Shown in pieces: positions 9,737 to 54,170 of a stretch of DNA of 64,000 bases. The stretch lies in the NCBI RefSeq assembly GCF_001753245.1, contig NZ_CP017415.1, positions 3,218,040 to 3,282,039 of the forward strand, in the 5' to 3' direction. A program made the translations under genes and the position numbers. The stretch is from Acidihalobacter yilgarnensis (lineage in GTDB: Bacteria > Pseudomonadota > Gammaproteobacteria > DSM-5130 > Acidihalobacteraceae). The notes under the pieces are model-generated. The model ran no database searches and was not told where the DNA came from. It saw nothing but the letters and a program-made list of their open reading frames with translations. The first letter of the stretch is position 1; every line of letters begins with the position of its first letter.

Positions 9737-9846
9737 AATACGACCGGTCGTCTAGGAATAAAACCGGCGGTTCGTGACGTTTTACAACGCCTTGGCATGC
9801 CGTAAAGTAAAGTAAGCGGCTCGACCCACTAGCCGGGACACCCCGT

Positions 9847-32919: not shown

Positions 32920-33099
32920 TATTAGCCCCATTCTTATGTAAAAGGGTAATCCGTGCCTGGATACTGAAGTACAACAAAACAAGGGCCCAGAACGGTGGGG
33001 TTTGATGGCAATTCAATCTTCTAATTATCATAGCCTCTGCCAGGCAGGCTGATTGGCCGGGTGTGATACCCTCCGCTGGTCCTCAGCGAGGCCCCAGGC

Positions 33100-33490: not shown

Positions 33491-33511
33491 GACCTCTATC
33501 CACTGCTAGTC

Positions 33512-37813: not shown

Positions 37814-37816
37814 TGT

Positions 37817-38656: not shown

Positions 38657-38664
38657 GTTACGTC

Positions 38665-39675
38665 ATGACCGACATCATTCTGTACACCACGGAAGACGGC
38701 AGCAGCCAAATCCAGCTCCGCACGGAGAATCAGACCGTTTGGCTGACGCAGCTTGAGATGGCGGAACTCTTCGATGCCACCAAGCAGAACATTTCCCTGC
38801 ACCTGAAGAACCTCTTCGCGGACGGGGAGCTGGATGCGGCGGCAACTGTCAAGGAATCCTTGACAGTTCAAATCGAGGGCAGCCGCGAGGTGCAGCGCAC
38901 GCTCACGCTCTACAATCTCGACGCCATTCTGGCCGTGGGCTACCGGGTGCGCTCGCCGCGTGGCGTGCAGTTCCGCCGCTGGGCCTCCACGGTGCTCAAG
39001 GAATACCTCGTCAAGGGTTTCGTGATGGATGACGAGCGGCTGAAGAACCCGGATGGCCGCCCCGACCACTTCGACGAGATGCTGGCGCGCATCCGCGATA
39101 TCCGGGCCTCCGAGAAGCGTTTTTACCAGAAGGTGCGCGACCTCTTCGCCCTGAGCAGCGACTACGACAAGACAGACAAAGCCACGCAGGCTTTCTTCGC
39201 CACGGTGCAGAACCTTCTGATCTTCGCCGTGACACAGAAAACCGCCGCCGAGCTCATCACCACCCGTGCAAATCCCGCCGATCCGCATTTCGGCCTGCTC
39301 GCCTGGAAGGGCGACACGGTGCGCAAGGCGGACATCCTCGTGGCCAAGAACTACCTGACCGAGGACGAGATCGACACCCTGAACCGGCTGGTGGTCATCT
39401 TTCTGGAAACCGCCGAACTGCGCGCCAAGAGCAAGCAGGAAACCCGCATGAGTTTCTGGAAGGGCAACGTAGACCAGATCATCACCGCCAACGGCTTCCC
39501 GCTGCTCGCTCACGCGGGCTCCATCAGCCATGAGCACATGGAGATCAAGACGAACGCGCTCTATCTCGACTACGACCAGCACCGCAAACAACAGGAAGCG
39601 CTGGAAGCCGATCAGCAGGACGAAGCCGAACTGAAAGCCCTCGAAAACCAAATCAAACGGCGCCCAAAGAAATGA
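38665..39675 (+). CDS. RhuM-family protein
   Basis: 336 residues matching RhuM (virulence protein first named in Salmonella SPI-3): ILYTTEDGSSQIQLRTENQTVWLTQLEMAELF, then TLYNLDAILAVGYRVRSPRGVQFRRWASTVLKEYLVKGF, a Bro/KilA-like DNA-binding region, and a helical C terminus. RhuM genes often sit inside type I R-M operons, but their job is not established. The ATG at 38665 follows AGGTGAG; the 3' end overlaps hsdM as ATGA. Confidence 0.9.
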   Translation: MTDIILYTTEDGSSQIQLRTENQTVWLTQLEMAELFDATKQNISLHLKNLFADGELDAAATVKESLTVQIEGSREVQRTLTLYNLDAILAVGYRVRSPRGVQFRRWASTVLKEYLVKGFVMDDERLKNPDGRPDHFDEMLARIRDIRASEKRFYQKVRDLFALSSDYDKTDKATQAFFATVQNLLIFAVTQKTAAELITTRANPADPHFGLLAWKGDTVRKADILVAKNYLTEDEIDTLNRLVVIFLETAELRAKSKQETRMSFWKGNVDQIITANGFPLLAHAGSISHEHMEIKTNALYLDYDQHRKQQEALEADQQDEAELKALENQIKRRPKK

Positions 39676-41288
39676 ACGACCTCGACCAAAAACAACTGGG
39701 CAAGACCCTCTGGAACATCGCCGACACCCTGCGCGGCGCGATGAACGCGGACGATTTCCGCGACTACATGCTGTCCTTCCTCTTCCTGCGCTACCTCTCG
39801 GACAATTATGAGACGGCCGCGAAGAAGGAGCTGGGCAAAGACTACCCCACGCTCGCTGCGGACGACCGCAGCGTGCCGCTGACGCTGTGGTATGCCAACA
39901 ACCCGGACGACACCATCGCGTTCGAGAAACAAATGCGCCGCAAGGTGCATTACGTCATCCAGCCGCAGCACCTCTGGAACAGCATCGCCAATCTGGCCCG
40001 CACCCAGAATGGCGAACTGCTCAACACGCTACAGGCGGGTTTCAAATACATCGAAAACGAGTCCTTCGAGAGCACCTTCAACGGTCTGTTCTCGGAGATC
40101 AACCTCGGCTCGGACAAGCTCGGCCGGAAATATGAAGACCGCAACGCCAAGCTCTGCGCCATCATCGCGGAGATCGCCAAAGGGCTGGCGGAATTCTCCA
40201 CCGGCATCGATGCCCTGGGCGATGCCTACGAATACCTGATTGGCCAGTTTGCCGCCGGTTCCGGCAAGAAGGCGGGCGAGTTCTACACCCCGCAGCAGAT
40301 TTCCGACATCCTGTCCGCCATCGTCACCCTCGACAGCCAGGAACCCGCCACCGGCAAGAAAGAGCGCCTGGCCAGTGTGCTCGACTTCGCCTGCGGCTCC
40401 GGTTCCCTGCTGCTGAACGTGCGCAAGCGCATGGGTCCGCACGGCATCGGCAAGATTTACGGACAGGAAAAGAACATCACCACTTACAACCTGGCGCGCA
40501 TGAACATGCTGCTGCACGGGGTGAAGGACACGGAGTTCGAGATCTATCACGGCGACACGCTAACGAACGATTGGGACATCCTGCGCGAGCTGAATCCCGC
40601 CAAGAAACCCAGCTTCGATGCCATCGTCGCCAATCCGCCGTTCAGCTACCGCTGGGAGCCCACGGCCGCCATGGGTGACGACGTCCGCTTCAAGAACCAT
40701 GGACTGGCCCCCAAATCCGCCGCCGATTTCGCCTTCCTGCTGCACGGCTTTCACTTCCTCAAAGACGAAGGCGTGATGGCCATCATCCTGCCCCACGGCG
40801 TGCTGTTCCGTGGCGGCGCGGAGGAGCGCATCCGCACCAAGCTGCTCAAAGACGGCCACATCGACACCGTCATCGGCCTGCCCGCGAACCTGTTCTACTC
40901 CACCGGCATCCCGGTCTGCATCCTCGTGCTCAAGAAGTGCAAGAAGCCCGATGACGTGCTGTTCATCAACGCCGCCGAGCACTTTGTGAAAGGCAAACGC
41001 CAGAACCAACTGACGCAAGAGCACATCGCCAAGATCATTGAGGCCTACCAATTCCGCAAGGAAGAGGACCGCTACTCAAAGCGCATCGGCATGGAGCGCA
41101 TCGCCGCGGAAGGTTACAACCTGAACATCTCGCGCTACATCAGCACGGCGGTGAGCGAGAAAGAAATCAGCCTGGATGAGACCCATGCGAGCTTGGTGAA
41201 AATCGAGAAGGCGATCCGGATCGCGACGGCGAAGCACAATGCATTCCTTAAAGAACTGGACAAGCCGCTGTTGCCGTCGGCGGATTGA
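39672..41288 (+). CDS. hsdM: Type I methyltransferase subunit HsdM
   Basis: 538 residues. N-terminal helical domain (WNIADTLRGAMNADDFRDYMLSFLFLRYLS), then the SAM-binding motif LDFACGSGSLLL and the N6-adenine catalytic motif NPPF in DAIVANPPFSYRW. With HsdS it methylates the target and protects host DNA. In most operons hsdM precedes hsdS and hsdR; here the order is hsdR-hsdS-orf-rhuM-hsdM, all with tiny gaps or overlaps. Confidence 0.95.
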   Translation: MNDLDQKQLGKTLWNIADTLRGAMNADDFRDYMLSFLFLRYLSDNYETAAKKELGKDYPTLAADDRSVPLTLWYANNPDDTIAFEKQMRRKVHYVIQPQHLWNSIANLARTQNGELLNTLQAGFKYIENESFESTFNGLFSEINLGSDKLGRKYEDRNAKLCAIIAEIAKGLAEFSTGIDALGDAYEYLIGQFAAGSGKKAGEFYTPQQISDILSAIVTLDSQEPATGKKERLASVLDFACGSGSLLLNVRKRMGPHGIGKIYGQEKNITTYNLARMNMLLHGVKDTEFEIYHGDTLTNDWDILRELNPAKKPSFDAIVANPPFSYRWEPTAAMGDDVRFKNHGLAPKSAADFAFLLHGFHFLKDEGVMAIILPHGVLFRGGAEERIRTKLLKDGHIDTVIGLPANLFYSTGIPVCILVLKKCKKPDDVLFINAAEHFVKGKRQNQLTQEHIAKIIEAYQFRKEEDRYSKRIGMERIAAEGYNLNISRYISTAVSEKEISLDETHASLVKIEKAIRIATAKHNAFLKELDKPLLPSAD

Positions 41289-41721
41289 AGTTCGTCGTGG
41301 ATTTGGAAACGGCGTTAGGAATGCGCTGATTTAGTCAGCGTTTGTGGTCCTTGTCCTTCTACGTTGGAGCACACCCCTCGAACGGAGGCGAAGGGCGAAC
41401 AGTGCCCGGTGGCCGCCGGAGTGACCAGCCCGAACCATACGCTGGGCCACCTGTACACGCATTGTGATCGTAGCCAAACGCACCCCGCCTTCGGTCTGCG
41501 GGGGCCGCCGAAGGCGGGGCGCAGGGCGTACAGCCCGCAGCCCCCGAAGCGCCAGCGAAGGGCCGGGGGGAGCCGGGTCCGGACACGCGCCGAGAGAGGT
41601 CGGGACAGGCAATCCGCATGACGGGCGCACCCCGTGCGCCTGGCGGGCGGGTTGCGGTTCCGGCCGAACCGAGGTCGTGAGCGAGCCCCAGCGAGCGGTC
41701 GGATCTGGGGGGCAACGCCCC

Positions 41722-41753
41722 GGCACGCCGAGCGAAGCGCGGCAACCCGCTGG
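41722..41753 (+). repeat. Left arm of a 32-bp inverted repeat
   Basis: Matches the reverse complement of 41890-41921 with one mismatch; the arms are separated by 136 bases. Each arm also contains the self-complementary GCGAAGCGC-type core. Confidence 0.8.
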
Positions 41754-41889
41754 CAGGGTGGAGGGGCGTGCGGTCCGCGTGACAGCCGACCCACAGGGCG
41801 GCTGGCGCGGGGGCTGCCCGTGCCGACACCGGGGCGCAACGCGACTCGGCAAATTCCAGCCAGCGTAGCGTGGCGGAATGCAGCCCGCG

Positions 41890-41921
41890 CCAGCGGGTTG
41901 CCGCGCTTCGCGCGGCGTGCC
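41890..41921 (-). repeat. Right arm of a 32-bp inverted repeat
   Basis: Partner of 41722-41753. Followed by further small hairpins (GACGCGGAGCGTC and CCGCGAAGCGTAGCGG type). Confidence 0.8.
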
Positions 41922-42107
41922 CGTCAAGGACGCGGAGCGTCCGCGAAGCGTAGCGGAGGTGTCGTCCGAGTCTGGGGCGGCGCGTCCAGCGCCGAGGCCG
42001 TACAACCGCGTAGCGGCGGCGTTCAGCCGCCCTCGACCGTAGGGAGAGGGGTGTGCGGTCGGTCCACAGGCTCGGGCGATCACACGCCTTTGACCGCACC
42101 CGGCCAT

Positions 42108-42172
42108 CCGTCACCTTACCCGTCACCGCGCTGACAAATAGGTCGGTCGGCGGTGACAGGTACTGTGACGGG
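42108..42172. promoter_or_regulatory. Cluster of CCGTCAC boxes upstream of the replication-relaxation-like gene
   Basis: CCGTCACC at 42108-42115 and CCCGTCACC at 42119-42127 are direct copies; GCGGTGAC at 42150-42157 and GTGACGGG near 42165-42172 are inverted copies. Four boxes in 65 bases, about 150 bases before the gene, suggest an operator or iteron-like site. Confidence 0.55.
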
Positions 42173-42326
42173 ATCTCCAGTCGGCGAGAATCGCTGACCA
42201 TCCTGATTGACCGCTCAGGATGGGCGCTCTGGACGGCCGAGCGGTCATCCTGTCGAGCCTCCCAATTTAAATTTTCCCCTAGACCTTCTGACGTGCTTTT
42301 CCCCACACGACAGGAGGTCTCTAATC

Positions 42327-43253
42327 ATGCCCAAACACGACATCGCCCGCTATGCCACATCGGCCAAAGAGCGCCATCAGAAGATACTCGAACATTGCTT
42401 GCTCTGGACCCTGCGCTGGCAGTTCGTCAGCGACCGGACGCTGGCCAAAATGATCCAGACGTTCTTAGAATCGAACCGCCCACGGATAGCCTATCAGCTC
42501 ATGCGCGAGGGTTGGCTTAAAGCCTGTCAGGTACCCATCGGACATCGACTTCTCGACGGCAAGCGGGTCTATGCGTTGTCCGAAGCGGGGCGCGCCTGGT
42601 GCCATGAGCACTTGGACTTGGACTCACGGATCATCCGACTGCATGACGGCACCCCTCGCCCCGCCTGGGGCAGCATGCAGCACTTACTCGATCTGCAACG
42701 GATCTTCCTCGGCACGGACCATTTGGGGATGCTGATGTACTGGAGCGAACCCGAGACTCGGCGGATGTACAGCGATCAGGCCCATGATCTGATCCCGGAT
42801 ATGGTGTTGGACTTTGACGGCGCACCGGGGCTTAACCAAGTCTGGGTTGAGTACGAGCGCAGCCCCAAGAACGACTTGCGCCTTGCGCACTGGGTCAACC
42901 TCTATGCCGCGCTTTTCCGGGCTCAAGACCAGGCGGCGCATCATCGTGCCCTCGACCTCGCGCACCGCCAGGCACAAGCGTCTGGGACGTATCCTGTGGA
43001 TGCTTCGGCCGAAGCATCGCCACCTGCGCTGCTGAAGGTGATCGTCATCGTCACCACGAAGTATCAGCGAGAGCGTTATGCAGCGGCCTTCTCGGTGGAG
43101 GCGGCAGCGGAGACGTACCGCCTCAGGGGGAACAACAAGCTCCAGCAAGGCAAAAACCATCTCCCGGTCGCGGAGTACATCGCCAGACGCGTCGAGGTCT
43201 TTACGTTGGCGCAGTGGCTGGCGGATGAGGACTCGGCAGACAGAGATGTCTGA
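42327..43253 (+). CDS. Replication-relaxation/MobC-like winged-helix protein
   Basis: 308 residues from the ATG preceded by AGGAGGT (42312-42318). Residues about 10-65 look like a winged helix (RHQKILEHCLLWTLRWQFVSDRTLAKMI...). The middle has PDMVLDFDG then VWVEYERSPK, a D...ExE...K pattern like PD-(D/E)xK nuclease folds seen in replication-relaxation family proteins of mobile elements. The precise function is not known. It is near the CCGTCAC cluster and faces dinB. Confidence 0.6.
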   Translation: MPKHDIARYATSAKERHQKILEHCLLWTLRWQFVSDRTLAKMIQTFLESNRPRIAYQLMREGWLKACQVPIGHRLLDGKRVYALSEAGRAWCHEHLDLDSRIIRLHDGTPRPAWGSMQHLLDLQRIFLGTDHLGMLMYWSEPETRRMYSDQAHDLIPDMVLDFDGAPGLNQVWVEYERSPKNDLRLAHWVNLYAALFRAQDQAAHHRALDLAHRQAQASGTYPVDASAEASPPALLKVIVIVTTKYQRERYAAAFSVEAAAETYRLRGNNKLQQGKNHLPVAEYIARRVEVFTLAQWLADEDSADRDV

Positions 43254-43434
43254 TCACCCCGCGACGGTCGGTGCGTGCACCGCTGGGCAGGCCAAGACGT
43301 GGGTGCCGTGCCAACCCACCCCCGGCCCGAGGGGCCGACCCCGCCGGAGGCGGGGTGAGGGGTTAGCGGGGGTAGCGGCAAGGGGCCGAGTCCGGGCACG
43401 AGGTCGGGGCTCACACACCCTCGCCTCCATATCG

Positions 43435-44613
43435 CTACGGTTTACGTCGCACCCCCCAATGCACGGCGCCACGGCCGAATCGGTCGCTGATGCGATCGAG
43501 CGTCGCGTAGAGCGGCTCTCGACCTGTTGCGGGCGCAGGCTCAACCTCGGCGAACAGATCGGACTGGGTGGGCGCTGTGGCATCCCAGCCGGCCAGGCCG
43601 AGGCCGATCAGCCGGACCGGACGTGCCGCCCAGTCCCCTTCTTGGTAGAGCGCCCAGGCATGACGGTAGAGCACGTCGTCGTCGGCCGTGGGCACGGGGA
43701 GTGTCCGTTGCCGGGTATGGGTCTTGAATCCCCGAAAGCGCAGCTTGAGGGTCACCGTGGAGCCCTTCAGGCCCGCCTGGCGGGCGGTATGGCCGATCTC
43801 CTGTGCCGCCCACAGCAGGGTGTCGCGCAGGAGCACCGGATCGGTGATGTCCTCGGCGAAGGTGGTCTCCTTGGAGATGGACTTGCGCACCGTGTCGGTG
43901 TGCAGGACATCGGAGGCGATGCCACAGGCCTGATCCTGGAAGCGCCGGGCGGCGTGCGCACCGAGATGCTGAATCAGCTGCGTGGCATCGGCCAGGCGCA
44001 CGTCTTTGACGGTGCGAAGTCCGAGGTCATGCAGCACCGCAGCGGCCTTGCCGCCGAGGCCGCGGAGCGCGGTCAGTGGCATCGGATCGAGAAAGGCCTG
44101 CACCCGCGCCGAGGGCACCACCATCAGCCCGTCAGGCTTGTGGTACTCCGAGGCCAGCTTCGCGATCAGGCGGTTCGGTCCGATACCCACCGAGGCGGTC
44201 AGGCCCACGGCATCGGCGATTACCTGCTTGGCGCGTTGACCGATCATCTCAGGTGGCCCCACCAGGCGTTCGAGACCGGACACGTCCAGGTAGGCCTCGT
44301 CGATCGAGACCGGTTCGACCACGGGCGAAATCGTGTTGAGTGCCGCCATGATGCACTGCGAGACGGCGGCATAATGCGCCATGCGCGGACGCACATAGAC
44401 CGTGTCGGCCGGCAACCGGCGCGCGGCCTCCGAAATCGGCATGGCTGAGTGGACGCCATAACGCCGGGCCTCGTAGGAACAGGTCGCCACCACGCCGCGC
44501 TGGCCGGGTGCTGCGCCGACCACCAGGGGACGGCCTCGCCACTCCGGATGATCGCGTTGCTCGACCGCCGCGAAAAAGGCGTCGAGATCGATGTGCATGA
44601 TCCGTCTGGACAT
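43435..44613 (-). CDS. dinB: DNA polymerase IV (Y-family)
   Basis: 392 residues. IMHIDLDAFFAAVEQRDHPEWRGRPLVVG opens the Y-family palm with the first catalytic Asp; SIDEAYLDV carries the second Asp-Glu pair; later GIGPNRLIAKLASEYHKPDGL and the HhH-like LRGLGGKAAAVLHDLGL are typical. It lacks a clear C-terminal beta-clamp motif such as QLxLF, though SDLFAEVE may serve. It gives error-prone bypass synthesis. Converges on the gene ending at 43253; the interval 43254-43434 shows only GC hairpins. Confidence 0.92.
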   Translation of the reverse strand: MSRRIMHIDLDAFFAAVEQRDHPEWRGRPLVVGAAPGQRGVVATCSYEARRYGVHSAMPISEAARRLPADTVYVRPRMAHYAAVSQCIMAALNTISPVVEPVSIDEAYLDVSGLERLVGPPEMIGQRAKQVIADAVGLTASVGIGPNRLIAKLASEYHKPDGLMVVPSARVQAFLDPMPLTALRGLGGKAAAVLHDLGLRTVKDVRLADATQLIQHLGAHAARRFQDQACGIASDVLHTDTVRKSISKETTFAEDITDPVLLRDTLLWAAQEIGHTARQAGLKGSTVTLKLRFRGFKTHTRQRTLPVPTADDDVLYRHAWALYQEGDWAARPVRLIGLGLAGWDATAPTQSDLFAEVEPAPATGREPLYATLDRISDRFGRGAVHWGVRRKP

Positions 44614-44940
44614 GGACCCGGTAGGCTGGCGCCCGGTAGTGGATGGGATCGGCTGGTATGGCCATCAGGTCAGGGCGGACCAAGACCCGAACGACTGATG
44701 GATTATTCCGCCGCCTCGGCAGCCGTACCAGTCGACGGCCAAGCAGACGATCAAGCAGTACGGCGGTATGATGCGAGTGGCTGGTTTTGGGATCGGCGCT
44801 CAACTGGCGCTTTCGGCCACATCCGGTCGTTCATGCTCTTCCGTATCTGTCCGATGGACGACAGGAGTGCAGCTGCGGGAACCTGTCGTTAGCCTAACTC
44901 TGGATGGGCGCCAGCGTCATGTCCCCATTTTCATACATGG

Positions 44941-45045
44941 ATATAGAGACAGAGGGATGATAAAGTGCTGAAGAATCGGCCGGTTAATCTCTGTTTACGT
45001 GGGTCTCTATATTAAAGAATGTCCGGACCCGTCGGTCTCTATATT
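44941..45045. repeat. Three copies of GTCTCTATAT before the first cassette gene
   Basis: GGTCTCTATATT occurs at 45002-45013 and 45034-45045 (32 bases apart) and its core is inverted at 44941-44950. The copies lie within 140 bases upstream of the gene at 45082 and could be regulatory. The rest of 44614-45081 shows no gene; a GTTAGCC at 44889-44895 may be the edge of an older cassette site. Confidence 0.5.
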
Positions 45046-45081
45046 TACTGTTATAAGTCACAATCAGCACTCGGAGTATAA

Positions 45082-45579
45082 ATGGAAAAATTACTCATAG
45101 CTGTCCTCGGTAATCGAAACTCGGGGAAAAATCATACGTGGAATACGCTATTTGGCTCTACTGTAAGAACCGGAAAAGAAGAGCGTCGCCTGTATTTCAA
45201 TGATTGTGAATACGTTAATGTGTTTTTGGTTAGCGGATCACCAGAGGAACGCGAAACGTATGTGGGTGATCTAATTGCAGAAAAAGAGCCAAGGATTGTG
45301 CTTTGCTCAACTCAATACAGAGATGATGTGAAAACTACATATAAGTATTTTGTTGATAATGGCTTTTTCTTGTTTGTCCATTGGTTAAATCCAGGATATT
45401 CCGATTTGGATGTGCCATCATTTGACAGTCTTGGTCTCGTGAACTGGCTGCTATCGCAACAATCAATTATCGGAATACGTTCTGGAAAGTCGTCTGCCGA
45501 CTCAAGAGTTGAAGAAATGAAGGAGTATATTTATGGCTGGGCAAAATTCAGAAATCTTGTTTTAAATGAGTGTGAGTAA
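45082..45579 (+). CDS. P-loop-like protein carried on an integron cassette
   Basis: 165 residues; GGAG lies just before the ATG. The N terminus IAVLGNRNSGKNHTWNTLFG resembles a Walker A motif (GxxxxGK) but has Asn where Ser or Thr is usual. The rest is not recognised. It is AT-rich, unlike dinB upstream, and its stop is 5 bases before an attC site, the arrangement of an integron gene cassette. Possible nucleotide-binding protein; function unknown. Confidence 0.75.
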   Translation: MEKLLIAVLGNRNSGKNHTWNTLFGSTVRTGKEERRLYFNDCEYVNVFLVSGSPEERETYVGDLIAEKEPRIVLCSTQYRDDVKTTYKYFVDNGFFLFVHWLNPGYSDLDVPSFDSLGLVNWLLSQQSIIGIRSGKSSADSRVEEMKEYIYGWAKFRNLVLNECE

Positions 45580-45584
45580 GTGAC

Positions 45585-45653
45585 TTATAACACGTCGCTC
45601 CAGCCGACGTCAGGCCGCGGGGCGGCCTTCCTCGGCTGAGCTTGGCGTTAGGC
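45585..45653 (+). repeat. Integron attC site 1
   Basis: Starts TTATAAC and ends GTTAGGC, the two core sites. The inner arms GCTC-C-AGCCGA (45597-45607) and TCGGCTGAGC (45632-45641) pair with one unpaired base, the strand-selecting feature of attC, and an inner GC hairpin fills the loop. It follows the stop at 45579. Confidence 0.8.
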
Positions 45654-45685
45654 GCATTCGATATTCATTTCACGGGAGCGTTGCT

Positions 45686-45862
45686 ATGACCGAAAACCTC
45701 ATCCTACAGTGCCCTGTCTGCGGCAAGGAAATCATCAACACTCGGAATTCCGTCCAACCGTACAACGACTTTGACGATTACGTTAGCTTTCGATGTAGCG
45801 GTTGTAAGAAGACTTTCACAGAAGCCGAAATTGCCGCAATGATGAATGCATCATCGCCCTAG
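45686..45862 (+). CDS. Small zinc-ribbon cassette protein
   Basis: 58 residues; not listed by simple length filters. It reads LQCPVCGKEIINTRN ... FRCSGCKKTFTEAEI, two CxxC pairs spaced as in a zinc ribbon. Such short zinc-finger proteins are common in integron cassettes. It starts 33 bases after attC 1, with GGGAG upstream. Function unknown. Confidence 0.75.
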   Translation: MTENLILQCPVCGKEIINTRNSVQPYNDFDDYVSFRCSGCKKTFTEAEIAAMMNASSP

Positions 45863-45943
45863 ATCATTTGAGGCGTACTGAATGACCGAACAGTGGAATG
45901 ACGCGCTATTTGAAAACTTTGTTCAGCTGCGAAATGCGCTTAG

Positions 45944-47120
45944 GGCAACGCTGAATAAGCGGCTGCATTAATCCATCATCACGTCTGATACGTTTTGCCC
46001 GTAGTCAGGCGGCCAGATTACGGTTTTCTGTTCCTGGTTTTCACTATTTACGCGCCTTGAGGCGCGTTGTTGGCCCGCAACGGTTCATCATGCGGGTACT
46101 CGGGGGCGCGACAGGTATAAGTTGGCCAGTCCGAGCGCCACGAAACTGCGGTTCGCATTCTTGTCCAAACCTCGGTAACGCACTTTGCTGAACCCCCACA
46201 GTCGCTTCACGACGGCGAAAACGTGCTCGACCCGGGCGCGGATCCGTGACTTGTTGCGATTACGCGAACGCTCGGCCTCGTCGACTTCGCCACCCTTGCG
46301 TATGCGTTGGTTGGTAAAGTCCTTCGCCCGAGGGGCATGCGCCCGAATCAGCGCTTTTTGACTGGCGTAGGCGCTGTCGCCATAGACCCGACGTTCCTCG
46401 CCGTGCAGCAGGTCCGCGAGCAGGTGTTTATCGTGCACGTTGGCGGCGGTCACCGCCGCGCTGTGCACCAACCCGGTACGACTGTCCACACCGATGTGCA
46501 GCTTCATGCCGAAATACCATTGCTGACCCTTGCGGGTCTGATGCATGTCGGGATCGCGCGCCTTGCGGGCGTTCTTCGTTGAACTCGGCGCACCGATGAT
46601 CGTGGCGTCGACGATCGTTCCAGTGCCGACCTTCAGGCCTCGGTCCCGCAGGGTCTGATTGACCTGCGCGAACAACGACGCACCCAGGTCGTGCTGCTCC
46701 AGTAAGCGACGAAATTTCAACAGGGTCGTTCCGTCCGGGACCCGCTCTCGGCCCAGGTCAATGCCCACGAATCGCCGCAGCGCCGTGCTGTCCAGTAGCG
46801 CTTCTTCACACGCCTCGTCAGCCAGGTTGAACCAGTGCTGCACGAAATACATCCGCAGCATCCGTTCCAGTCCCACCGGGGGGCGACCCTTCCCCGCCTT
46901 CGGGTAGTGGGGTTCAATCACCGCGCACAACGCTGACCAAGGCACGAGTGGCTCCATCGTCGAAAGAAACACATCACGACGCGTCGCTCGTCGATGGACC
47001 TCGAATCCTTCACCTTGGTCCGCTGCCATTGCCAGTGTCTGCTGTTTCATCGTCACGATCCCAATTGGTTGTCAGGGCAACTCAATTTTCGCAGAGGTAA
47101 GAGACTTTTTCAGCGTTGCC
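45944..47120 (-). mobile_element. IS5-family insertion sequence
   Basis: 1177 bp bounded by imperfect inverted repeats starting GGCAACGCTGAA and by a 4-bp target duplication TTAG (45940-45943 and 47121-47124). Four-base CTAR-like duplications are typical of IS5. It carries one transposase gene on the minus strand and looks intact. Confidence 0.92.
46088..47056 (-). CDS. IS5-family transposase
   Basis: 322 residues. The N-terminal DUF772-like region (LVPWSALCAVIEPHYPK...GRPPVGLERMLRMYFVQHWFNLAD) and the DDE core are present: Asp in GTIVDATIIGAPSS, Asp in VYGDSAYAS and Glu in RVEHVFAVVKRLWGF. No frameshift, so it may be active. Confidence 0.95.
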   Translation of the reverse strand: MTMKQQTLAMAADQGEGFEVHRRATRRDVFLSTMEPLVPWSALCAVIEPHYPKAGKGRPPVGLERMLRMYFVQHWFNLADEACEEALLDSTALRRFVGIDLGRERVPDGTTLLKFRRLLEQHDLGASLFAQVNQTLRDRGLKVGTGTIVDATIIGAPSSTKNARKARDPDMHQTRKGQQWYFGMKLHIGVDSRTGLVHSAAVTAANVHDKHLLADLLHGEERRVYGDSAYASQKALIRAHAPRAKDFTNQRIRKGGEVDEAERSRNRNKSRIRARVEHVFAVVKRLWGFSKVRYRGLDKNANRSFVALGLANLYLSRPRVPA

Positions 47121-47398
47121 TTAGAGCGGCGAAAAAGGGAAAGAACTATCAATGCGTTCTCTCCGTCGGGGAGAGCATCCTTGAGTTGGACAAGCGAGCT
47201 ACGTTCCTAAAGAAGATCGCAACTCCTATTTTTCAGAAGGACATGGCGGAAGCATGTATCAAGTTAGGTGCTGTCAATTCCGCCATCGAATATCTGCTTG
47301 CGGCAAAGGCAGGATTTGAGGAGCGAAGGAATGGATCTGACGATTGGCAGAAGGATATTGAGTTGATTAACAAGAAACTCGCAAAGCTAATGCCATGC

Positions 47399-47465
47399 GC
47401 CTAACCCATCATTCCACCGGACCTGCGCGAAAAGCCGTGCAGGCCGTTGAATTCAAACGTTGGGC
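47399..47465 (+). repeat. Integron attC site 2
   Basis: Begins GCCTAAC and ends GTTGGGC, which are nearly complementary. Inner arms CGGACCTGC and GCAGGCCG pair with one unpaired A. It ends the cassette interrupted by the IS. The first core overlaps the stop of the cassette gene. Confidence 0.88.
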
Positions 47466-47612
47466 GTCAAGAATGTGTGCCCGTACCGTAGTGAAATGTA
47501 GTCATCCTGACGGTTGATCATGCCATTGCCAGAGAAAGAGTGCGTTCTTCACGCTAGATGAAATCGCAAATCGGTGGCGCTTCGCCTAGGCGTTAAGTTA
47601 ACGTGTTGAAAG

Positions 47613-47647
47613 TGCGGTATGGGGGCTGAGACCAGTTCCCATACCGC
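47613..47647. terminator. Hairpin between the cassette region and the ubiquitin-like operon
   Basis: A perfect 10-bp inverted repeat GCGGTATGGG / CCCATACCGC with a 15-base loop. Followed by TTATAG rather than a long T run, so terminator function is only possible. The interval 47466-47832 otherwise holds no clear gene; a GCGTTAAG near 47591 may be another cassette edge. Confidence 0.5.
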
Positions 47648-47832
47648 TTATAGCAGCTTAGCTGGCTGTCCTTTGGATGATTACAAGCGGCGTGTCGGTT
47701 TGGTAGATCGTTTCGCTATACCAAAGAGGGGGTGCCGCTTCCCTTCTGACTTGAATGTGAGTAGTACGCCCCAATAACCAATGTGGACAAGCCTTTGCTT
47801 GTTTTCTTCTATTCACCTTATGGAGCCCGCTT

Positions 47833-47985
47833 ATGTCAGACAAAGATACCGAAAAAGAAGACAAGACCCATCACCATGATAAGCAACATGGACCAGATCA
47901 TCGCCCGCCTGGTCCGCCTAACGACGTCCCGCCAGGAAAGCATCGCGCACCCAATGTCCCAGGTAACAGACCAGTCGGTCGATGA
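47833..47985 (+). CDS. 50-residue His/Pro-rich disordered peptide, first gene of a ubiquitin-like operon
   Basis: MSDKDTEKEDKTHHHDKQHG opens a 50-residue protein with no hydrophobic core; the second half is Pro, Gly, Arg and His rich and ends in RPVGR. GGAG (47822-47825) lies 7 bases before the ATG, and the stop overlaps the start of the E2-E1 gene (ATGA), so it is very likely translated and coupled. No beta-grasp fold can fit. It could be a small protein modifier in the manner of the disordered Pup, a substrate or a regulator of the conjugation enzymes. Family not recognised. Confidence 0.7.
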   Translation: MSDKDTEKEDKTHHHDKQHGPDHRPPGPPNDVPPGKHRAPNVPGNRPVGR

Positions 47986-49772
47986 ATCACTGGTTTGACA
48001 TAGATCCCAGTCGACTTGAGTTTGAGCTTGAATGGCTTGATTGGGCCGGATTCCCTTACTCCATACTGGATGACGGTAGGGAATCTGGCTTTTTGACCCT
48101 ATCAGTCACTTACCCGGATCCCGATCATGAAGACGCAGGCTTCCAAGGTCATCCCTTAACGGTCACCTTTCCCCCAAACTATCCTGCGTTCCCTTTCCGT
48201 ATATTAGCTCCGACCTTTCCGCGTGGAACACACGTCAACCCTGCTCACGAGCTATGCCTCCTGGAAAACCCCGGAGACAGCTGGAATGGCTCACGAGACT
48301 TTCTTGTCGCCTTCCTAAATAAACAAGTTAAGGATATTTTGCGGGCACACCGAGGCGATGACACAGTTTTGGAGGCACAAGAAGGGTTAAGGCAAACAGG
48401 ATACGTCAACTATTCCGCGTTAAGTTTTATGGTGACAGGTGATTGGGTCATCCCTCCTGGTGTTAAGCGAGGCTATTTATCCTGGAAAGTCCTTCCCTCA
48501 GCAAATATCCCTCATTACGTACGAGGATGCGTTGCCCAGATTCAATCAGAAACTGGGGACTCGTTAGGGGACTTATCTATGGGTGTGCATTGGGATGGTC
48601 AACTACGAGGCATCCCTGATATTGCAGGTCGATGGTTACGACTTGAAACCATACCGAACGACCCAAACGATATTCTTAAGGAAGCGCGCGAAGAATGGCC
48701 AGGATTGGAAAAAACAATAGGCGTTCCAGACCTAATTGGTTTATTAATTCCAGAGGAAAAAAACACAGCTGACGACATTCTCTATAATTGGGTTTTTATT
48801 ACTCGTATGCTTGTTCCCATGCTAGTTGCACAAGCACCGCAAGCACCGCAAGCATTTCAGATTACAACAGATCTCGCGACCAGTGTTATACGCGCAGAGC
48901 AATTTTCACCTGAGACAAGGTGGGCCAGAACACCCAGAACACAATATCTAGAAAGCAAGAAAGCCGTAGTTGTTGGCTTAGGAGCTATTGGATCTCCTTT
49001 AGCCTGGCAATTAGCAAGATCTGGGATTGGTGAACTGGTATGTGTTGATTGTGATTCTGTTCAAATTGGGAACATACCACGTTGGCTTTATGGGTTTTCA
49101 GCTCTAGGCGATAGGAAAGCTGCGTGCATAGCGAATAATTTACAGCAACAGTATCCGCCTCTTCGTGCTACCTCAATTGACTATAAAGTAGGTGTGGCAG
49201 AAGCTAGTACGGCGGTCCCCTACGAACAGTTTCTTGCATCGATTGCTTCGGCTGATATCGTTATAGATGCAACAGCTGAAGTATCGATTAATCGTTACCT
49301 TGAATCATTAGCGAGAGAACACGGCATCCCGTATGTTTGGGCTTATGCCTCTAATGGAGGATGGGGTGGCGTTGTTGGCAGGAGTATTCCAGGCGCAACT
49401 CTGGGTTGCTACGAATGCTTTCAGTATCACATGATCGATGCCGTCAATGCCCGCGCGGCGGGTGCGCCAGTTCCAGACGGAGGCATTGATCTCCCGCCAG
49501 CTGAAGACAAGCCTGATGTACAACCAGTAGGCTGTTTTCACCCAACATTTCGTGGAACAGGTTTTGATCTAGACCAAGTTTCTCAGCTGGCGGCAAGATT
49601 GGCTGTGGCAACCTTGGGCAGAGATGCGCCTGACGAAGATAAATACCAGGATTTCACGTGGGATATCGCAGTGCTGTCACAATGGGACCCAACCTCCGAT
49701 CAACCCACAGTTCCAAATTGGAAAACACACAGTCTAGATAGGCACCAAAGTTGCCAACACCACGATGATTAG
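47982..49772 (+). CDS. E2-E1 fusion enzyme of a bacterial ubiquitin-like conjugation system
   Basis: 596 residues. The N-terminal part (about 1-150) resembles a bacterial E2/UBC fold: VTFPPNYPAFPF, then HVNPAHELCLLENPGDSW with candidate catalytic Cys92. A linker region follows. Residues about 320-560 form a ThiF/E1 adenylation domain: VVVGLGAIGSPLAWQLARSG (332-337 nucleotide motif), VDCDSV, DRKA, DIVIDAT, and Cys518 in PVGCFHPTFRGTGFD as candidate E1 thioester Cys. This size and order match CBASS Cap2. Overlaps the JAB gene by 8 bases. AT-richer than neighbours. The partner protein is uncertain. Confidence 0.85.
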   Translation: MNHWFDIDPSRLEFELEWLDWAGFPYSILDDGRESGFLTLSVTYPDPDHEDAGFQGHPLTVTFPPNYPAFPFRILAPTFPRGTHVNPAHELCLLENPGDSWNGSRDFLVAFLNKQVKDILRAHRGDDTVLEAQEGLRQTGYVNYSALSFMVTGDWVIPPGVKRGYLSWKVLPSANIPHYVRGCVAQIQSETGDSLGDLSMGVHWDGQLRGIPDIAGRWLRLETIPNDPNDILKEAREEWPGLEKTIGVPDLIGLLIPEEKNTADDILYNWVFITRMLVPMLVAQAPQAPQAFQITTDLATSVIRAEQFSPETRWARTPRTQYLESKKAVVVGLGAIGSPLAWQLARSGIGELVCVDCDSVQIGNIPRWLYGFSALGDRKAACIANNLQQQYPPLRATSIDYKVGVAEASTAVPYEQFLASIASADIVIDATAEVSINRYLESLAREHGIPYVWAYASNGGWGGVVGRSIPGATLGCYECFQYHMIDAVNARAAGAPVPDGGIDLPPAEDKPDVQPVGCFHPTFRGTGFDLDQVSQLAARLAVATLGRDAPDEDKYQDFTWDIAVLSQWDPTSDQPTVPNWKTHSLDRHQSCQHHDD

Positions 49773-50271
49773 AAGAAATAGCGAAATACTATGGCTTCCT
49801 TCTAACCTCTTAATTGATCATGTCTATTCTGATGCTTTAAAAAATGATCCAGATGAAACTGGTGGCATGCTTTTAGGTTACGTTAACAGGGAGCATAGAG
49901 TTATTACCGCCCTTGTCGATGCTGGTCCGAAAGCCGTGCGATCTTCCTATTTCATGAAGCCGGATGACATCTATCAACAACAAAAACTGCAAGAGCACTT
50001 TGAGTTAACTGAGGGGCGCGAGACCTACATTGGCGAATGGCACTCTCACCCAAATTCCCCTCCAGAGATGAGCAAAACCGATAGAAAAACGCTCCATCGA
50101 GTTACGATCAAAGCTACGAATCTACCCGCGCTTCCAGTAATGGTGATTTTAGGCTCATCCGATGGGGTTGGCTTTTCTAAAATTAGAGCCTATCGTAGAA
50201 ATTCACGGGATCATTTGTTTTTGGGGTTGAGAGCACAACACTTCTCAGAGATGCTTATCAAAACATACTAA
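49765..50271 (+). CDS. JAB/JAMM isopeptidase-like protease
   Basis: 168 residues with a complete JAMM motif: Glu31 in DETGGMLLGY, His93 and His95 in GEWHSHPNSPP, then Ser103 and Asp106 in MSKTD. These bind zinc and cleave isopeptide or C-terminal peptide bonds in deubiquitinase-like enzymes such as CBASS Cap3. It probably trims or removes the peptide attached by the E2-E1 enzyme. It overlaps that gene by 8 bases and the opposite-strand AlbA_2 gene by 14 bases. Confidence 0.9.
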   Translation: MIRRNSEILWLPSNLLIDHVYSDALKNDPDETGGMLLGYVNREHRVITALVDAGPKAVRSSYFMKPDDIYQQQKLQEHFELTEGRETYIGEWHSHPNSPPEMSKTDRKTLHRVTIKATNLPALPVMVILGSSDGVGFSKIRAYRRNSRDHLFLGLRAQHFSEMLIKTY

Positions 50272-51625
50272 GCTCAGAGGCGGGGCGTCCATGGTCACAA
50301 ATATATGACCCATATTCATGAGGGTAAAGGCGTATATTATTAGCTCCCCTTCTGACAAAGATATCTCTTTGGTCTTTGATGTGAACCGGCTTGTTTGTAG
50401 ACTCTGGAACGTCGATTATTAAAATGTAAACCTCAGCAATATTTGCAAATTCATAAGTAATCTCTTCTGCGTGATTTACAAGTTTGTCGTTGATTAATCT
50501 TTTTATGTCGTCTGAATATTTACAGCAAGATTCTTTATCGAGAGAGCACTTGTAGTAGGAGCCAAAGAAGCGAGACTCTCCTTCTGATGGGTCGTTAATT
50601 CCAGAAAGTGCTCCATCGTCTCTTATGCCGATATAGGCAGACCCCCCAGCCGAGTTCGAGAACGCTGCCACAGTCTCTAAGAGTTCTGTGTATTTGTATG
50701 CATCCTTCGGAGATATAAATGGCTTAAATTCTAGTCTTGGCCCCTCTCCTAACATCCTAGCCTCGCCAACCTTTCTAGAGAGCGAAGCATGCCCTAGGTT
50801 AACGTGATCAAATTCACCAATCCCTGCTTCAAAGTTCTCAATTCGGATCAAGTCAATCAATTCATTGCGCTCTCTAATTAATGCCAACTCAACACGCCCT
50901 GTACCAGAAGGGAAGTTGAGGCTACATGCGCCACCTATAATTGTTGGCTCAAGATGATGGATTTTACCGCCCGACCAGTAGATACACTTAATAACTAATT
51001 CAGGGTGGCTTGGATCTTGCTCAACTTTCAACGAGAGTTCTTCTCCAAATTTTCTGACATCAAATAAGCCCGCCCTGCATTCAGGCAGGATGAGCATAAG
51101 AGACCAGTTCCTACTATCGCTTGATCTGTTATACACGCTGATGTCAAGCCAGTAAGCTGCTGCTTCGTAGACGTCTGGGAAGAACGGCGAATCGGAATTT
51201 ATGAGGGGCTCACTGGGCAAGATGTTCCTATTATTTACATTTGTCTCATAAACATCGCCGCTTCGTTTCATGTAGTTGTTGTTTCTGAAATAATGCGTAT
51301 AGCCTCCTTGATTCGAAGAGAGCTCAAAAATTACCTTTTTATCCTCGAGCATAAAGAAGCGCTGACCTAACTCCTCATAAAAACAGCGAACTTCGTTCGT
51401 ATCTAGATAATCTTCTCGCAAGATAGCGTTGCCGTAATAGTGCGCGGTTGCTTCGCCATTTTTCGGGCTTTCGAGAGGAGTTATTGCGCCCACCAAAAAG
51501 ACCCATTTCTCCTCAATTAGAACAAGGACCATCCTTCTACGATAAAGCCGCTTGCCTTGATATAATTCTGAATATTTATCAAGTCTATTTAATGCTTCGT
51601 TTATTTCAATTGTTTCACGATTCAT
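50258..51625 (-). CDS. AlbA_2 (Schlafen-like) domain protein
   Basis: About 455 residues from the ATG at 51625; a GTG at 51661 is possible. The C-terminal third has GEGPRLEFKPFISPKDAYKYTELLETVAAFSNSAGGSAYIGIRDDG..., the AlbA_2/Schlafen AAA_4 domain, ending with KDQRDIFVRRGANN. The N-terminal two thirds are not recognised. AlbA_2 proteins include regulators and several phage-defence proteins. Very AT-rich. It converges on the JAB gene, so it is not in the ubiquitin-like operon. Confidence 0.8.
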   Translation of the reverse strand: MNRETIEINEALNRLDKYSELYQGKRLYRRRMVLVLIEEKWVFLVGAITPLESPKNGEATAHYYGNAILREDYLDTNEVRCFYEELGQRFFMLEDKKVIFELSSNQGGYTHYFRNNNYMKRSGDVYETNVNNRNILPSEPLINSDSPFFPDVYEAAAYWLDISVYNRSSDSRNWSLMLILPECRAGLFDVRKFGEELSLKVEQDPSHPELVIKCIYWSGGKIHHLEPTIIGGACSLNFPSGTGRVELALIRERNELIDLIRIENFEAGIGEFDHVNLGHASLSRKVGEARMLGEGPRLEFKPFISPKDAYKYTELLETVAAFSNSAGGSAYIGIRDDGALSGINDPSEGESRFFGSYYKCSLDKESCCKYSDDIKRLINDKLVNHAEEITYEFANIAEVYILIIDVPESTNKPVHIKDQRDIFVRRGANNIRLYPHEYGSYICDHGRPASELSMF

Positions 51626-51710
51626 GTTGGAAACGCTCCATGTTTTATTTAAATTACCCACGATAAAAGCAGTGTTCTGGCAGGATATTTTGTAATTAAT
51701 GTGTAGGTAA

Positions 51711-52130
51711 TCAGTTATTAAAATAAATGATATCTTCTGGAGAGATCAAACCCTTCGCCAGACCGAGTCTCATTGCGGGCGTCTCTCCATCCTTACCCGC
51801 CTCTACGAAGTTGTGCATGACTCGGTAGATATCTAAGAGTTTGCCGACCATTACGGGGTTATACGGACTGTAACCGTACCAAGTCCTACGATTTTTGCTC
51901 GCTGTGTGGATTGGTCGTTCTAGAAGGTTGACGCTTCTCCTTACGCGCTGAAAGAAGTTGTCCACGCTATGAAGGCTAGCTTTTAAAAACAGTCTAGCAA
52001 GATGGTCTGGATCGTAGTCAGGCGTTTCTTTCCGCAGGTCTGTAAGCCAGCACATCGCCTTGTCAGGCTCAGACATCTTCGGGAGTGGGTGCGCTGCCCA
52101 CCGATCTTGCCATAGGTCACGCCTAGTCAA
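51711..52130 (-). pseudogene. Probable transposase C-terminal fragment
   Basis: 139 residues ending GYSPYNPVMVGKLLDIYRVMHNFVEAGKDGETPAMRLGLAKGLISPEDIIYF, a pattern I associate with the C terminus of some transposases. The N-terminal catalytic region is absent. It is likely a remnant. Upstream, 52131-52458 holds no gene that I can support. Confidence 0.45.
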
Positions 52131-52458
52131 CAGGGGCGGTCTCAGCTCACAACCCTAGGAGCCATTTGGTGACGCTGATCGGCCTTATCCCGAGGTTGTC
52201 GGTGGCTCCTGGTCATTCACGCCTCGTCGTACCAGCCAAGCGAACCCGGCTGACCGTATGGGAACACGACCGGGAACTGTACAAAAAGCGAAACGAGGTG
52301 GAGAGGGGGGCAGTTTCGTCGCCTCAGGGAATTCAGAAGGATATTCTCGTGCTTCAACCAACTCATTGTCCTCTTCAAGTTCTTCATTCACTTCGCGCTG
52401 ATCGTCGATATATTATTTATGTGTGAACAGTTCCCAGCGAATGGATGGATATGCCGAC

Positions 52459-54114
52459 TTAGCTGATCGGCCGGGGTGAGGTGTTCCACGTCTGCTGATC
52501 AACCCAGTGATCCAATCCATTATCGGCCGCAGCTCCGATTACATATTCAGCAACCCGCATATCTTTCTTGAAGTCCTCATGATTTTGAGTATTTGTGAGT
52601 GAAATCCGTTCGCCATCCGTCAGCAGCGCCGTTATGTAACCGCTAGGAGTGAATTCAATTACCTGGATATGGTGTCGCAAAGCCTGATTAAACCGCGCCC
52701 GACGCACAAACTGCTCTTCGGTCGATTTACCCGCCTGGTGCAAGACCCCAAACAACGCATCATCGAGATCACCACTAGCTGATGATCTTTGGGCTGCAGT
52801 ACCGCGTAGCTCCTCGATCCGCATCTGGGTTTCGAGGCGCTGAGCAAGGATATCTGTATAGCGCCGCTGGATCGGCCCTAGACTTTCCGGATCGGCCAAC
52901 TCGAACAAACTCGTGTAGTTTTCAATGGCCCGATCCTGCTCTGCCAGTTTCGCGTTTAACGCTGCGTTCTCTCGTGTCGTCTCCGCTAATTTCTGACGCT
53001 CGACTTCGGTCGCCGCTACGAGGTCTATGTGTTCGGAGATGATGTTTAGAAAGATGGCCTCAATTCCGCGATACGGGTAGTGCCGTCGATGATCGCATTG
53101 GCTACCCGCAATGGCGTGGGAGCACACCAAGTAGGGACCACCAGATTTGGGATTGGCTCCTTTGTTTACATACCGCATTGTCCCACCGCATTTTGCGCAG
53201 CGTCCCATCCCCATCAATAAATTAGAGAACCTTTGTCCGCGACGCCCACCCTGCAATCGGCGCGCAGATGATGCCGCTTGCGCGAGGTAGAACATTTGTT
53301 CGTCGATGATGACTGGATAGTAGTGCTGAATAGGGTCGCCGGAGGGCCGCCGATCCCGACCTCTTCCCGTATAAGGCTGGTATTCGCCAAGTACTGCTCG
53401 ATTGGCAAGTATTTTCGAAACATAGCTTTCATGCCACATTTGACCGGATCCAAATGGCGGCACGCCTCTCTCGTTCAGATCGCGGATGATACGGCGCCGG
53501 CCTAAGCCAGCGGTGATGCTTTTGAATATTTCTCGGACTATTTGTGCACGCTCTGAAATTTCAACTATCCGATTCGTTCCCCGATCAAGTCGTAGCCAAT
53601 GCGGCACTCTCGAAGTGAGTGGAGCAGTGAACGCATTGCTACGTTTCGCCGCCCATGCGGCCGATAGCCGGTGGCTTTTCATCGCCGATTCTTCGTGCGC
53701 CCGAGCCATTACAAACAGAGAGATGACCAAGTTGCCGACGTTATTGATGGACTCGCGCGTATAGTGTTGCCCGTCTGCAAGAGTGATTACTTCGACACCC
53801 GCACTTAGCAGCCGGGTAAACAACCCCAATGCGGTTAGTATCTCTTCGCGACTGAGCCTATCCAGAGACTCAATCAGCAACGCGCTGCCGGGCTCTATCT
53901 CGCCACTCTCGGCAAGTTCGATAAACCGACCTAAAGCCCCTCTAAGGCGATTAGCCCCGCGGTACGCTGAGACGCCAAGATCGCGCATTGACGAATCGAA
54001 CACATAGCCATGGTGGCGACACCACTCCTCGGATGCCGTGAGTTGACGTCGCAGGCTGTCGCCCCGAAGTTGCTCTGGGGTAGACATGCGGATATAGGAG
54101 TAGGCGATGCGCAT
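52459..54114 (-). CDS. Large serine recombinase (island integrase)
   Basis: 551 residues. The resolvase domain begins YSYIRMSTPEQLRGDSLRRQL with catalytic Ser11 and continues with ESLDRLSREE carrying active-site arginines. A recombinase domain (about 170-270) and a zinc ribbon (CAKCGGTMRYV ... CSHAIAGSQC) follow, then a long coiled coil (about 370-450). These features are those of large serine integrases. Its start is 25 bases inside the right 11-bp inverted end, placing it where an attP-linked integrase should be. Confidence 0.93.
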   Translation of the reverse strand: MRIAYSYIRMSTPEQLRGDSLRRQLTASEEWCRHHGYVFDSSMRDLGVSAYRGANRLRGALGRFIELAESGEIEPGSALLIESLDRLSREEILTALGLFTRLLSAGVEVITLADGQHYTRESINNVGNLVISLFVMARAHEESAMKSHRLSAAWAAKRSNAFTAPLTSRVPHWLRLDRGTNRIVEISERAQIVREIFKSITAGLGRRRIIRDLNERGVPPFGSGQMWHESYVSKILANRAVLGEYQPYTGRGRDRRPSGDPIQHYYPVIIDEQMFYLAQAASSARRLQGGRRGQRFSNLLMGMGRCAKCGGTMRYVNKGANPKSGGPYLVCSHAIAGSQCDHRRHYPYRGIEAIFLNIISEHIDLVAATEVERQKLAETTRENAALNAKLAEQDRAIENYTSLFELADPESLGPIQRRYTDILAQRLETQMRIEELRGTAAQRSSASGDLDDALFGVLHQAGKSTEEQFVRRARFNQALRHHIQVIEFTPSGYITALLTDGERISLTNTQNHEDFKKDMRVAEYVIGAAADNGLDHWVDQQTWNTSPRPIS

Positions 54115-54138
54115 TATGTTGATTGTAGATTACAGACC

Positions 54139-54149
54139 CTAATAGGTCC
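54139..54149. repeat. Right 11-bp inverted end of the island
   Basis: CTAATAGGTCC is the exact reverse complement of GGACCTATTAG at 32915-32925. Five bases (AATCA) separate it from the 16-bp direct repeat. Confidence 0.75.
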
Positions 54150-54154
54150 AATCA

Positions 54155-54170
54155 TGCTGATGATCGGACC
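54155..54170. repeat. Right 16-bp direct repeat (attR core)
   Basis: Identical to 32904-32919. It encodes LMIGP of the ComM Walker A region in the same frame, so either copy could belong to the intact gene. Confidence 0.88.

Follow-up and report, generated by a model that had tools for sequence, protein, structure and literature searches.

A 64,000-nucleotide stretch of the Acidihalobacter yilgarnensis genome (contig NZ_CP017415.1; referred to here as the window) contains a compact three-gene cassette encoding a short proline-rich peptide, an E2-E1 fusion enzyme and a JAB/JAMM metalloprotease. By analogy with the Cap2 and Cap3 enzymes of bacterial immunity, this cassette is likely to constitute a reversible ubiquitin-like conjugation system in which the modifier would be the short, presumably unfolded peptide.

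The first gene (47833..47985, + strand; ATG at 47833, TGA at 47985) is preceded by a GGAG site and encodes the proposed modifier, a 50-residue, probably disordered peptide ending in ...NRPVGR, to which Pfam gave no match. Its final R-P-V-G-R codons (47968..47982, +) include the conserved end -VG, followed by an arginine that would be trimmed. The second gene (47982..49772, +) starts within the peptide stop, with a 4-nt overlap (ATGA), and encodes a Cap2-like E2-E1 fusion of 596 residues, with His84 and Cys92 in the E2 half and Cys518 in the ThiF-type E1 half. The third (49765..50271, +), whose ATG overlaps the E2-E1 stop by 8 nt, encodes a Cap3-like JAB/JAMM metalloprotease of 168 residues, proposed to act in trimming and deconjugation. 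An earlier note on this DNA had described three translationally coupled genes, a good GGAG site and ATGA overlap for the peptide, an E2-E1 with candidate Cys92 and Cys518 and an intact ThiF nucleotide motif, a JAB protein with a full JAMM site, and the lack of a partner cGAS/DncV-like nucleotidyltransferase (CD-NTase) or ubiquitin-like protein. This description was borne out: the three genes overlap end to end, the catalytic residues are invariant among aligned relatives (see below), and tblastn with ten control CD-NTases as queries found no CD-NTase in the window.

Conservation of the peptide gene

Relatives of the E2-E1 enzyme were drawn from plasmids (12 records), genome collections and 50 genome contigs, the last found with a family alignment, as the window protein alone gave none as a query. 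Phage records yielded no match at 1e-10, and viral contigs gave two remote E1-only matches (L063 and L064). According to their record titles, the relatives belong to Gamma- and Alphaproteobacteria, Actinomycetota, Bacteroidota, Chloroflexi, KSB1 and a planctomycete. A short Pro/Gly/His-rich open reading frame (ORF) occupies the slot before the E2-E1 gene in 66 of the 70 loci examined, across six phyla: 56 of the first 60 loci, one on the plasmid pNGR234a (L066), and all nine loci checked afterwards. By the main refutation test that the earlier note had set, absence of the short ORF from related operons would have spoken against its reading; the ORF was instead found at these 66 loci with a -V-(G/A) end. 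The four loci without a peptide are two E1 fragments (L042, L057) and the two viral contigs with remote E1 similarity (L063, L064), while the peptide is present at four loci where the E2-E1 frame is broken (L009, L034, L058, L061). Two peptides are incomplete, with 13 residues at a contig edge (L017) and 8 residues after a frameshift (L059); L006, an E1-only match in which the gene before E2-E1 ends in -GFA, was left uncounted.

Peptides were recognized by a filter that called for VG close to the stop of a frame rich in Pro, Gly, His, Asn and Asp, the first seven loci having been read without any tail filter and the L060 peptide having been recognized by eye. The nine later loci are every further locus yielded by the extended searches: eight were recognized by the filter, and L093 was found by eye, since -VA-type ends are missed by it. 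Because the filter itself required VG near the stop, the evidential weight lies in how few loci failed. For a chance test, the filter was set mechanically to frames of at least 25 codons, with VG within six residues of the stop and more than 45% P/G/H/N/D in the last 40 residues; applied to loci totalling 868,682 bases and 19,699 frames (overlapping copies and control loci counted as well), it returned 77 matches, nine of which lack the family tail, antisense readings of the peptide gene among them. In related pairs, synonymous differences in the peptide gene exceed non-synonymous ones (15.5 versus 1.5 for L005/L024, 23.5 versus 7.5 for L014/L015, and 28.5 versus 7.5 for L032/L038), in a table confined to equal-length pairs with pN <0.25, a pre-selection that flatters the result. 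These filter counts, together with the selection on the gene, rule out a chance ORF. A mere overlap artefact is likewise ruled out, as the tail is kept at spacings from the E2-E1 start that range from -8 to more than 30 nt.

The short ORF is listed as a gene at only one of 14 plasmid loci, in a gene table known to be incomplete. Near-full-length E2-E1 relatives are rare: two of 398 sampled genomes of the phylum (a third match covers E1 only), three of 369 genomes of the window's class, and one of 385 genomes of the class of G200, counts that take in the window's own genome and G200. The symbiotic plasmid pNGR234a (L008, L066/L068 and L069) holds two cassette copies, with tails RPVG and KHVG, and an E2-E1 locus resembling type 6c.

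Composition and C-terminal tail of the peptide

Across the 55 peptides tabulated, a set that omits L042, L057, L063, L064 and L060 and in which two rows are incomplete, the median length is 47 residues, and the composition is 35% Pro, 14% Gly and 8% His, with no Cys; complete peptides span 39-70 residues, L037 apart. Judged from this composition, the peptide body is probably disordered, and a ubiquitin-type fold is unlikely given 35% Pro and no Cys. Among 25 non-redundant peptides, two prolines occur at a spacing of three with a frequency of 0.205, compared with 0.119 in shuffled sequences (z 13.8), a periodicity that suggests a polyproline-II rod. His-dependent metal binding as the conserved function was ruled out, two of these 25 peptides having no histidine.

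The C terminus is the fixed part. In 65 of the 66 peptides, the end is -Val-Gly followed by zero to two residues, and in one it is -Val-Ala (-RKVA, L093); the filter allowed up to six residues past VG, and at most two occur. The 55 tabulated tails comprise RPVG (35), KHVG (4), RPVGR (3), RPVGQQ, RQVG, REVG, GKVG and RKVG (2 each), and RPVGQ, RPVGQG and GQVG (1 each). On the E2-E1 tree, the seven tail states are accounted for by six changes, the minimum possible; therefore, tail and enzyme travel together. In the available text of PMC10097602, a terminal Gly or Ala is the rule for CD-NTases of Cap2/Cap3 operons, and by that analogy the -VA end of L093 is the same Gly-to-Ala freedom.

The E2-E1 fusion and the JAB protease

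In the window E2-E1, Pfam detects ThiF at 6.5e-25 and Prok-E2_B weakly, at 0.062 and below the cut-off; the PADLOC models E1-E2 and JAB match the two enzymes. An alignment of 32 E2-E1 sequences (the window protein and 31 of the 50 genome-contig loci), in which distant relatives are 24-36% identical to the window protein, shows Cys92 of the E2 half and Cys518 of the E1 half to be invariant, together with His84, G332/G334/G337, D356, D358, R367, K379 and D429. Cap2 ranks first in a sequence search among solved relatives (8.2e-25) and is also the best Foldseek match of the predicted E2-E1 model (7to3_A; E 4.9e-25, 648 alignment columns, template modeling (TM) scores of 0.55/0.58, root-mean-square deviation 9.2). 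The model has a mean predicted local distance difference test (pLDDT) score of 84.1, and the loop around Cys518 is its least certain part (residues 513-521, pLDDT <50). In VIA-align comparisons of the E1 half, UBA5, MoeB and ThiF are equally good (Z 26.4, 26.0 and 25.9). One BubCD-BubB-BubA chain (9eav_B) stands at rank 39 in the fold search of E2-E1, behind Cap2. The cassette E2-E1 enzymes form one side of a branch from those of cyclic oligonucleotide-based antiphage signaling systems (CBASS), in a tree with three CBASS rows and long branches.

The JAB protein matches Pfam Prok-JAB at 7.4e-17, and its JAMM residues E31, H93, H95, S103 and D106 are invariant in 18 aligned sequences. It scores 60.5 with the NCBIfam Cap3 equivalog NF050170, against a cut-off of 200; with NF058523 (6A-MBL), E2-E1 scores 77.4 and JAB 71.9, against a cut-off of 320. 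A JAB gene lies 3′ of E2-E1 in 54 of 56 loci. The JAB frame of Colwellia L013 (7685-7980) is short, with 114 residues and an early stop relative to its kin.

The slot in control loci and in a Hymenobacter variant

As a control, twelve PF14461 loci were inspected, and none of the twelve has the peptide before its E2-E1. Ten of them, of Cap2 type (L071-L080), have 338-455 codons of open frame that reach the E2-E1 start; the encoded protein ends in Gly or Ala in nine of the ten (the exception being L074); all three slot genes scanned are CD-NTases by Pfam, and all ten are matched by another locus's CD-NTase. The control slot thus holds a CD-NTase-like gene, and the peptide therefore occupies the place of the Cap2 substrate. 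In the family set, one of 73 sequences (overlapping copies included) has a CD-NTase-like gene: in Azospirillum L036, at 9386-10891 (-), 2 kb past JAB on the opposite strand and not adjacent, perhaps belonging to a separate CBASS.

The single variant of the slot seen in the family comes from a metagenome-assembled genome of Hymenobacter (L037). The protein encoded there (1602-2090) matches DUF1508 (YegP) over two stretches and then continues into a tail rich in Pro and Gly that ends in ...GDRPVG. The E2-E1 of this locus belongs to a clade of four Bacteroidota enzymes, the other three of which are accompanied by short peptides. Judging by L037, the -RPVG tail seems to be an E1 substrate that can be moved from one carrier to another. 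The available text of PMC13373217 gives 57 cases in which a YegP gene comes after the regulators CapK+CapS; these may or may not be connected with the DUF1508 protein of L037.

Proposed mechanism and points against it

In the proposed scheme, the E1 half would adenylate the C-terminal Gly of the R-P-V-G tail, and this Gly would be held as a thioester on Cys518 and then handed to Cys92 of the fused E2 half, which would transfer the peptide onto lysines of target proteins. JAB would remove the encoded extra C-terminal residue (Arg in the window) and would also detach the peptide from its targets. What the target receives would be the peptide body, with Pro favored at each third residue and probably forming a polyproline-II rod. 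The adenylation, thioester and lysine steps are proposed because of the analogy with Cap2 and Cap3: in the consulted sections of PMC10097602 and PMC11153139, Cap2 binds cGAS as a thioester through its C-terminal Gly and joins it mostly to lysines, and Cap3 cleaves at the cGAS C terminus. The earlier note's suggestion that JAB trims the peptide to Gly is consistent with the tails, since most relatives stop at -VG and the window peptide and six others of 55 run on by R, Q, QQ or QG; the trimming chemistry itself we infer.

On a broader level, and with less assurance than for the conjugation system as such, we favor the view that E1/E2-driven conjugation here would use a modifier lacking any folded domain, whose sole fixed feature is the tail, -V-(G/A) and in most cases R-P-V-G. 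Activation would require no signal beyond this tail, whether it stands on a short rod or on a folded domain (DUF1508/YegP in L037), much as CBASS carries it on a CD-NTase.

Several observations weigh against this interpretation. In the classical E2 motif, HPN, the Asn is conserved less strictly, a loose HxN/T/H/S/E...CLL pattern fitting 38 of 51 E2 halves. Several of the 66 loci are close kin of others, including most of the nine later ones (Iamia L086, G863 L093 and G980 L094 are not close kin of earlier loci), with near-copies in the groups L005/L022, L010/L019, L012/L043/L044/L091, L048/L087/L088/L092 and L089/L090; the selection result is also flattered by the choice of pairs. Besides E2-E1 and JAB, no gene is common to more than eight of 56 loci, so the operons name no target or effector. 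Chains through the peptide cannot be general because the complete peptide of L049 has no lysine. Just seven of 55 peptides carry residues after -VG that would need trimming, and trimming therefore cannot be the main task of JAB. Finally, the two Halomonas loci L016 and L056 (two of 56) have no JAB nearby. Their peptides end at -VG (REVG) without extension, which fits a trimming role and proves little, because 48 of 55 peptides have no extension anyway.

Alternative explanations

The first alternative is a peptide natural product, in which the E1 half would adenylate the peptide C terminus as MccB does that of MccA, with E2 and JAB helping to make or export a modified peptide (an antibiotic, metallophore or signal). 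In the microcin C7 system, MccB is a ThiF-fold enzyme that acts on a short peptide, adenylating its C terminus, and the product is a peptide-nucleotide antibiotic. MccB is among both the sequence and the fold matches of the cassette E1 half, many of the peptides are His-rich, and three plasmid cassettes (L007, L010, L012) lie amid copper or heavy-metal genes. However, no transporter or tailoring gene is common to the loci, two of 25 non-redundant peptides have no His, and, unlike the cassette, the MccB/MccA system is not known to have an E2 or a JAB; an E2 with invariant Cys and His and a JAMM protease are not known as parts of MccB pathways. A natural product is improbable.

Less probable again is a role of the peptide as a non-covalent cofactor or inhibitor that would sit as a pseudo-substrate in the E2-E1 active site, the true substrate being encoded elsewhere. 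The strict coupling of the genes and the resemblance of the tail to an E1 substrate would suit such a role as well, but the gene in the control slot is CD-NTase-like, the CD-NTase being the known Cap2 substrate, and a substrate needs just such a terminal Gly/Ala with short extensions that can be removed.

Least probable, and very unlikely, is a decayed or rearranged type II CBASS in which the peptide would be the remnant C-terminal tail of a lost CD-NTase: the Cap2-like E2-E1, the Cap3-like JAB and the mostly Gly/Ala ends of CD-NTases in Cap2 operons (nine of ten controls; available text of PMC10097602) agree with it, but the short peptide is found in six phyla (by record titles) and is under constraint, and a CD-NTase-like gene was found in one family sequence of 73, 2 kb past JAB on the other strand. 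A recently lost CD-NTase was ruled out by the spread of the peptide, its conserved tail and the near-absence of CD-NTases from the family sequences. Because the peptide is so widespread and constrained, any such loss would be ancient; decay of CBASS, unlikely as a recent event, is compatible as an ancient origin with conjugation of the peptide, the preferred explanation.

Relation to known conjugation systems

The cassette is closest to the Cap2/Cap3 pair of type II CBASS as described in the available sources: both have an E2-E1 fusion followed by JAB, with the substrate gene directly upstream and a terminal Gly/Ala, and Cap2 is the best match by sequence and by Foldseek. The cassette slot differs in holding a peptide of 39-70 residues instead of a CD-NTase, and, as regards the effector of type II CBASS, no gene beyond E2-E1 and JAB is widely common to the cassettes, effectors at single loci being possible.

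The cassette enzymes were probably already seen by Iyer, Burroughs and Aravind (2006; PMC1779556), whose Table 1, in the part of the paper available, lists in row 6b RhNGR234a and an actinobacterium, 'Asp.', under E2+E1 with JAB; our guess is that 'Asp.' is the Arthrobacter locus. That type is described with a polymerase-beta-type nucleotidyltransferase, and the corresponding part of PMC1779556 mentions no small unfolded peptide. Type 6c features, in the same source, a metal-binding protein in the operon and an E2 with Cys for His. Membership of type 6c was ruled out for the cassette, His84 being invariant in 32 of 32 sequences and no further gene widely common; 6c fits a separate pNGR234a locus with DUF2604, a metal-binding protein, JAB and an 'E2 ligase fold family C' protein.

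UFM1 shares with the cassette peptide a Val before the terminal Gly, described as unique to UFM1 among ubiquitin-like proteins, and the removal of a C-terminal dipeptide by a protease (available text of PMC10952357). UBA5, the E1 of UFM1, is the best match of the cassette E1 half, level with MoeB and ThiF. UFM1 itself differs in having a ubiquitin-like structure and an E1 and E2 that are separate proteins; the shared -VG may reflect convergence. The Bil system (BilABCD) likewise combines E1, E2, JAB and a modifier whose C-terminal Gly is uncovered by JAB (available text of PMC11354881), but its modifier has two ubiquitin-like domains and its E1 and E2 are separate, whereas the cassette has E1 and E2 in one chain and a short Pro-rich peptide without a Pfam match. 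In 6A-MBL, E2, E1 and JAB form one chain beside a metallo-beta-lactamase, whereas the JAB of the cassette is a separate gene.

Pup has a C-terminal Gln/Glu and is attached by a PafA-type ligase, kin to bacterial carboxylate-amine ligases and unrelated to E1/E2; it thereby differs in enzymes and C terminus from the cassette, whose peptides end in -VG or -VA plus zero to two residues. Like the proposed modifier, Pup is small, intrinsically disordered and conjugated (available text of PMC3511204 and PMC5286830). The Pup-like tag suggested in the earlier note therefore fits in size and presumed disorder, and does not fit in enzymes and tail.

Genomic setting

The cassette is carried by a mobile island of about 21 kb (32920..54156) inserted in comM (yifB), with a 14-nt repeat, CTGATGATCGGACC, at both edges (32906-32919 and 54157-54170). 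The island splits this Mg-chelatase-like gene into pieces at 32261-32941 and 54010-55032; its open frame spans 508-532 codons in three relatives (a congener and two members of the family), versus 236 for the fragment here. The island encodes a type I restriction system, RhuM, a Y-family polymerase, an IS transposase, a Schlafen/AlbA_2 protein and, at its right end, a large serine recombinase identified by Pfam (52459..54114, - strand). It is a mobile, defense-like setting, and a function of the cassette in defense, against phage or stress, would be in keeping with it.

Two ORFs (36591-37813), each with a Methylase_S domain, make up the split type I specificity gene hsdS, and the RhuM-family protein (38653-39675) lies between hsdS and hsdM. 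Upstream of the cassette are two ORFs, at 45082-45579 (165 aa) and 46994-47404 (136 aa), with no Pfam match above the cut-off; downstream, the Schlafen/AlbA_2 gene (50258-51661, - strand) is convergent with the JAB gene and overlaps its 3′ end by 14 nt.

At other loci, clustering places an IrrE-type peptidase gene, partly with an XRE regulator, near nine cassettes in three clusters (L013, L014, L015, L032, L049; L038, L040; L041, L045), with Pfam run on one member of each (L015, L038, L041). This arrangement is reminiscent of CapH+CapP, which the available text of PMC13373217 names as helix-turn-helix and peptidase regulators in immune operons. RES/Xre toxin-antitoxin pairs adjoin L008, L009, L012 and L091, and a gene that by eye looks like a resolvase adjoins the Halomonas cassettes (L016/L056) on the opposite strand. 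Copper or heavy-metal genes surround the plasmid cassettes L007, L010 and L012, as mentioned above.

Significance

In the open-licence literature searched, no paper was found that describes E2-E1-JAB operons with a short unfolded peptide. The peptide gives a partner to E2-E1 and JAB pairs that have no CD-NTase, and it would be a new class of modifier for Cap2-like machinery and a new sort of protein tag. E1/E2 modifiers are thought of as ubiquitin folds, the CD-NTase having been a recent surprise. If the proposal is true, a bare C-terminal tail suffices, and the basic unit of such pathways would be a tail plus any cargo, not the ubiquitin fold; this would bear on the origin of ubiquitin-type pathways and would offer a very small conjugation tag.

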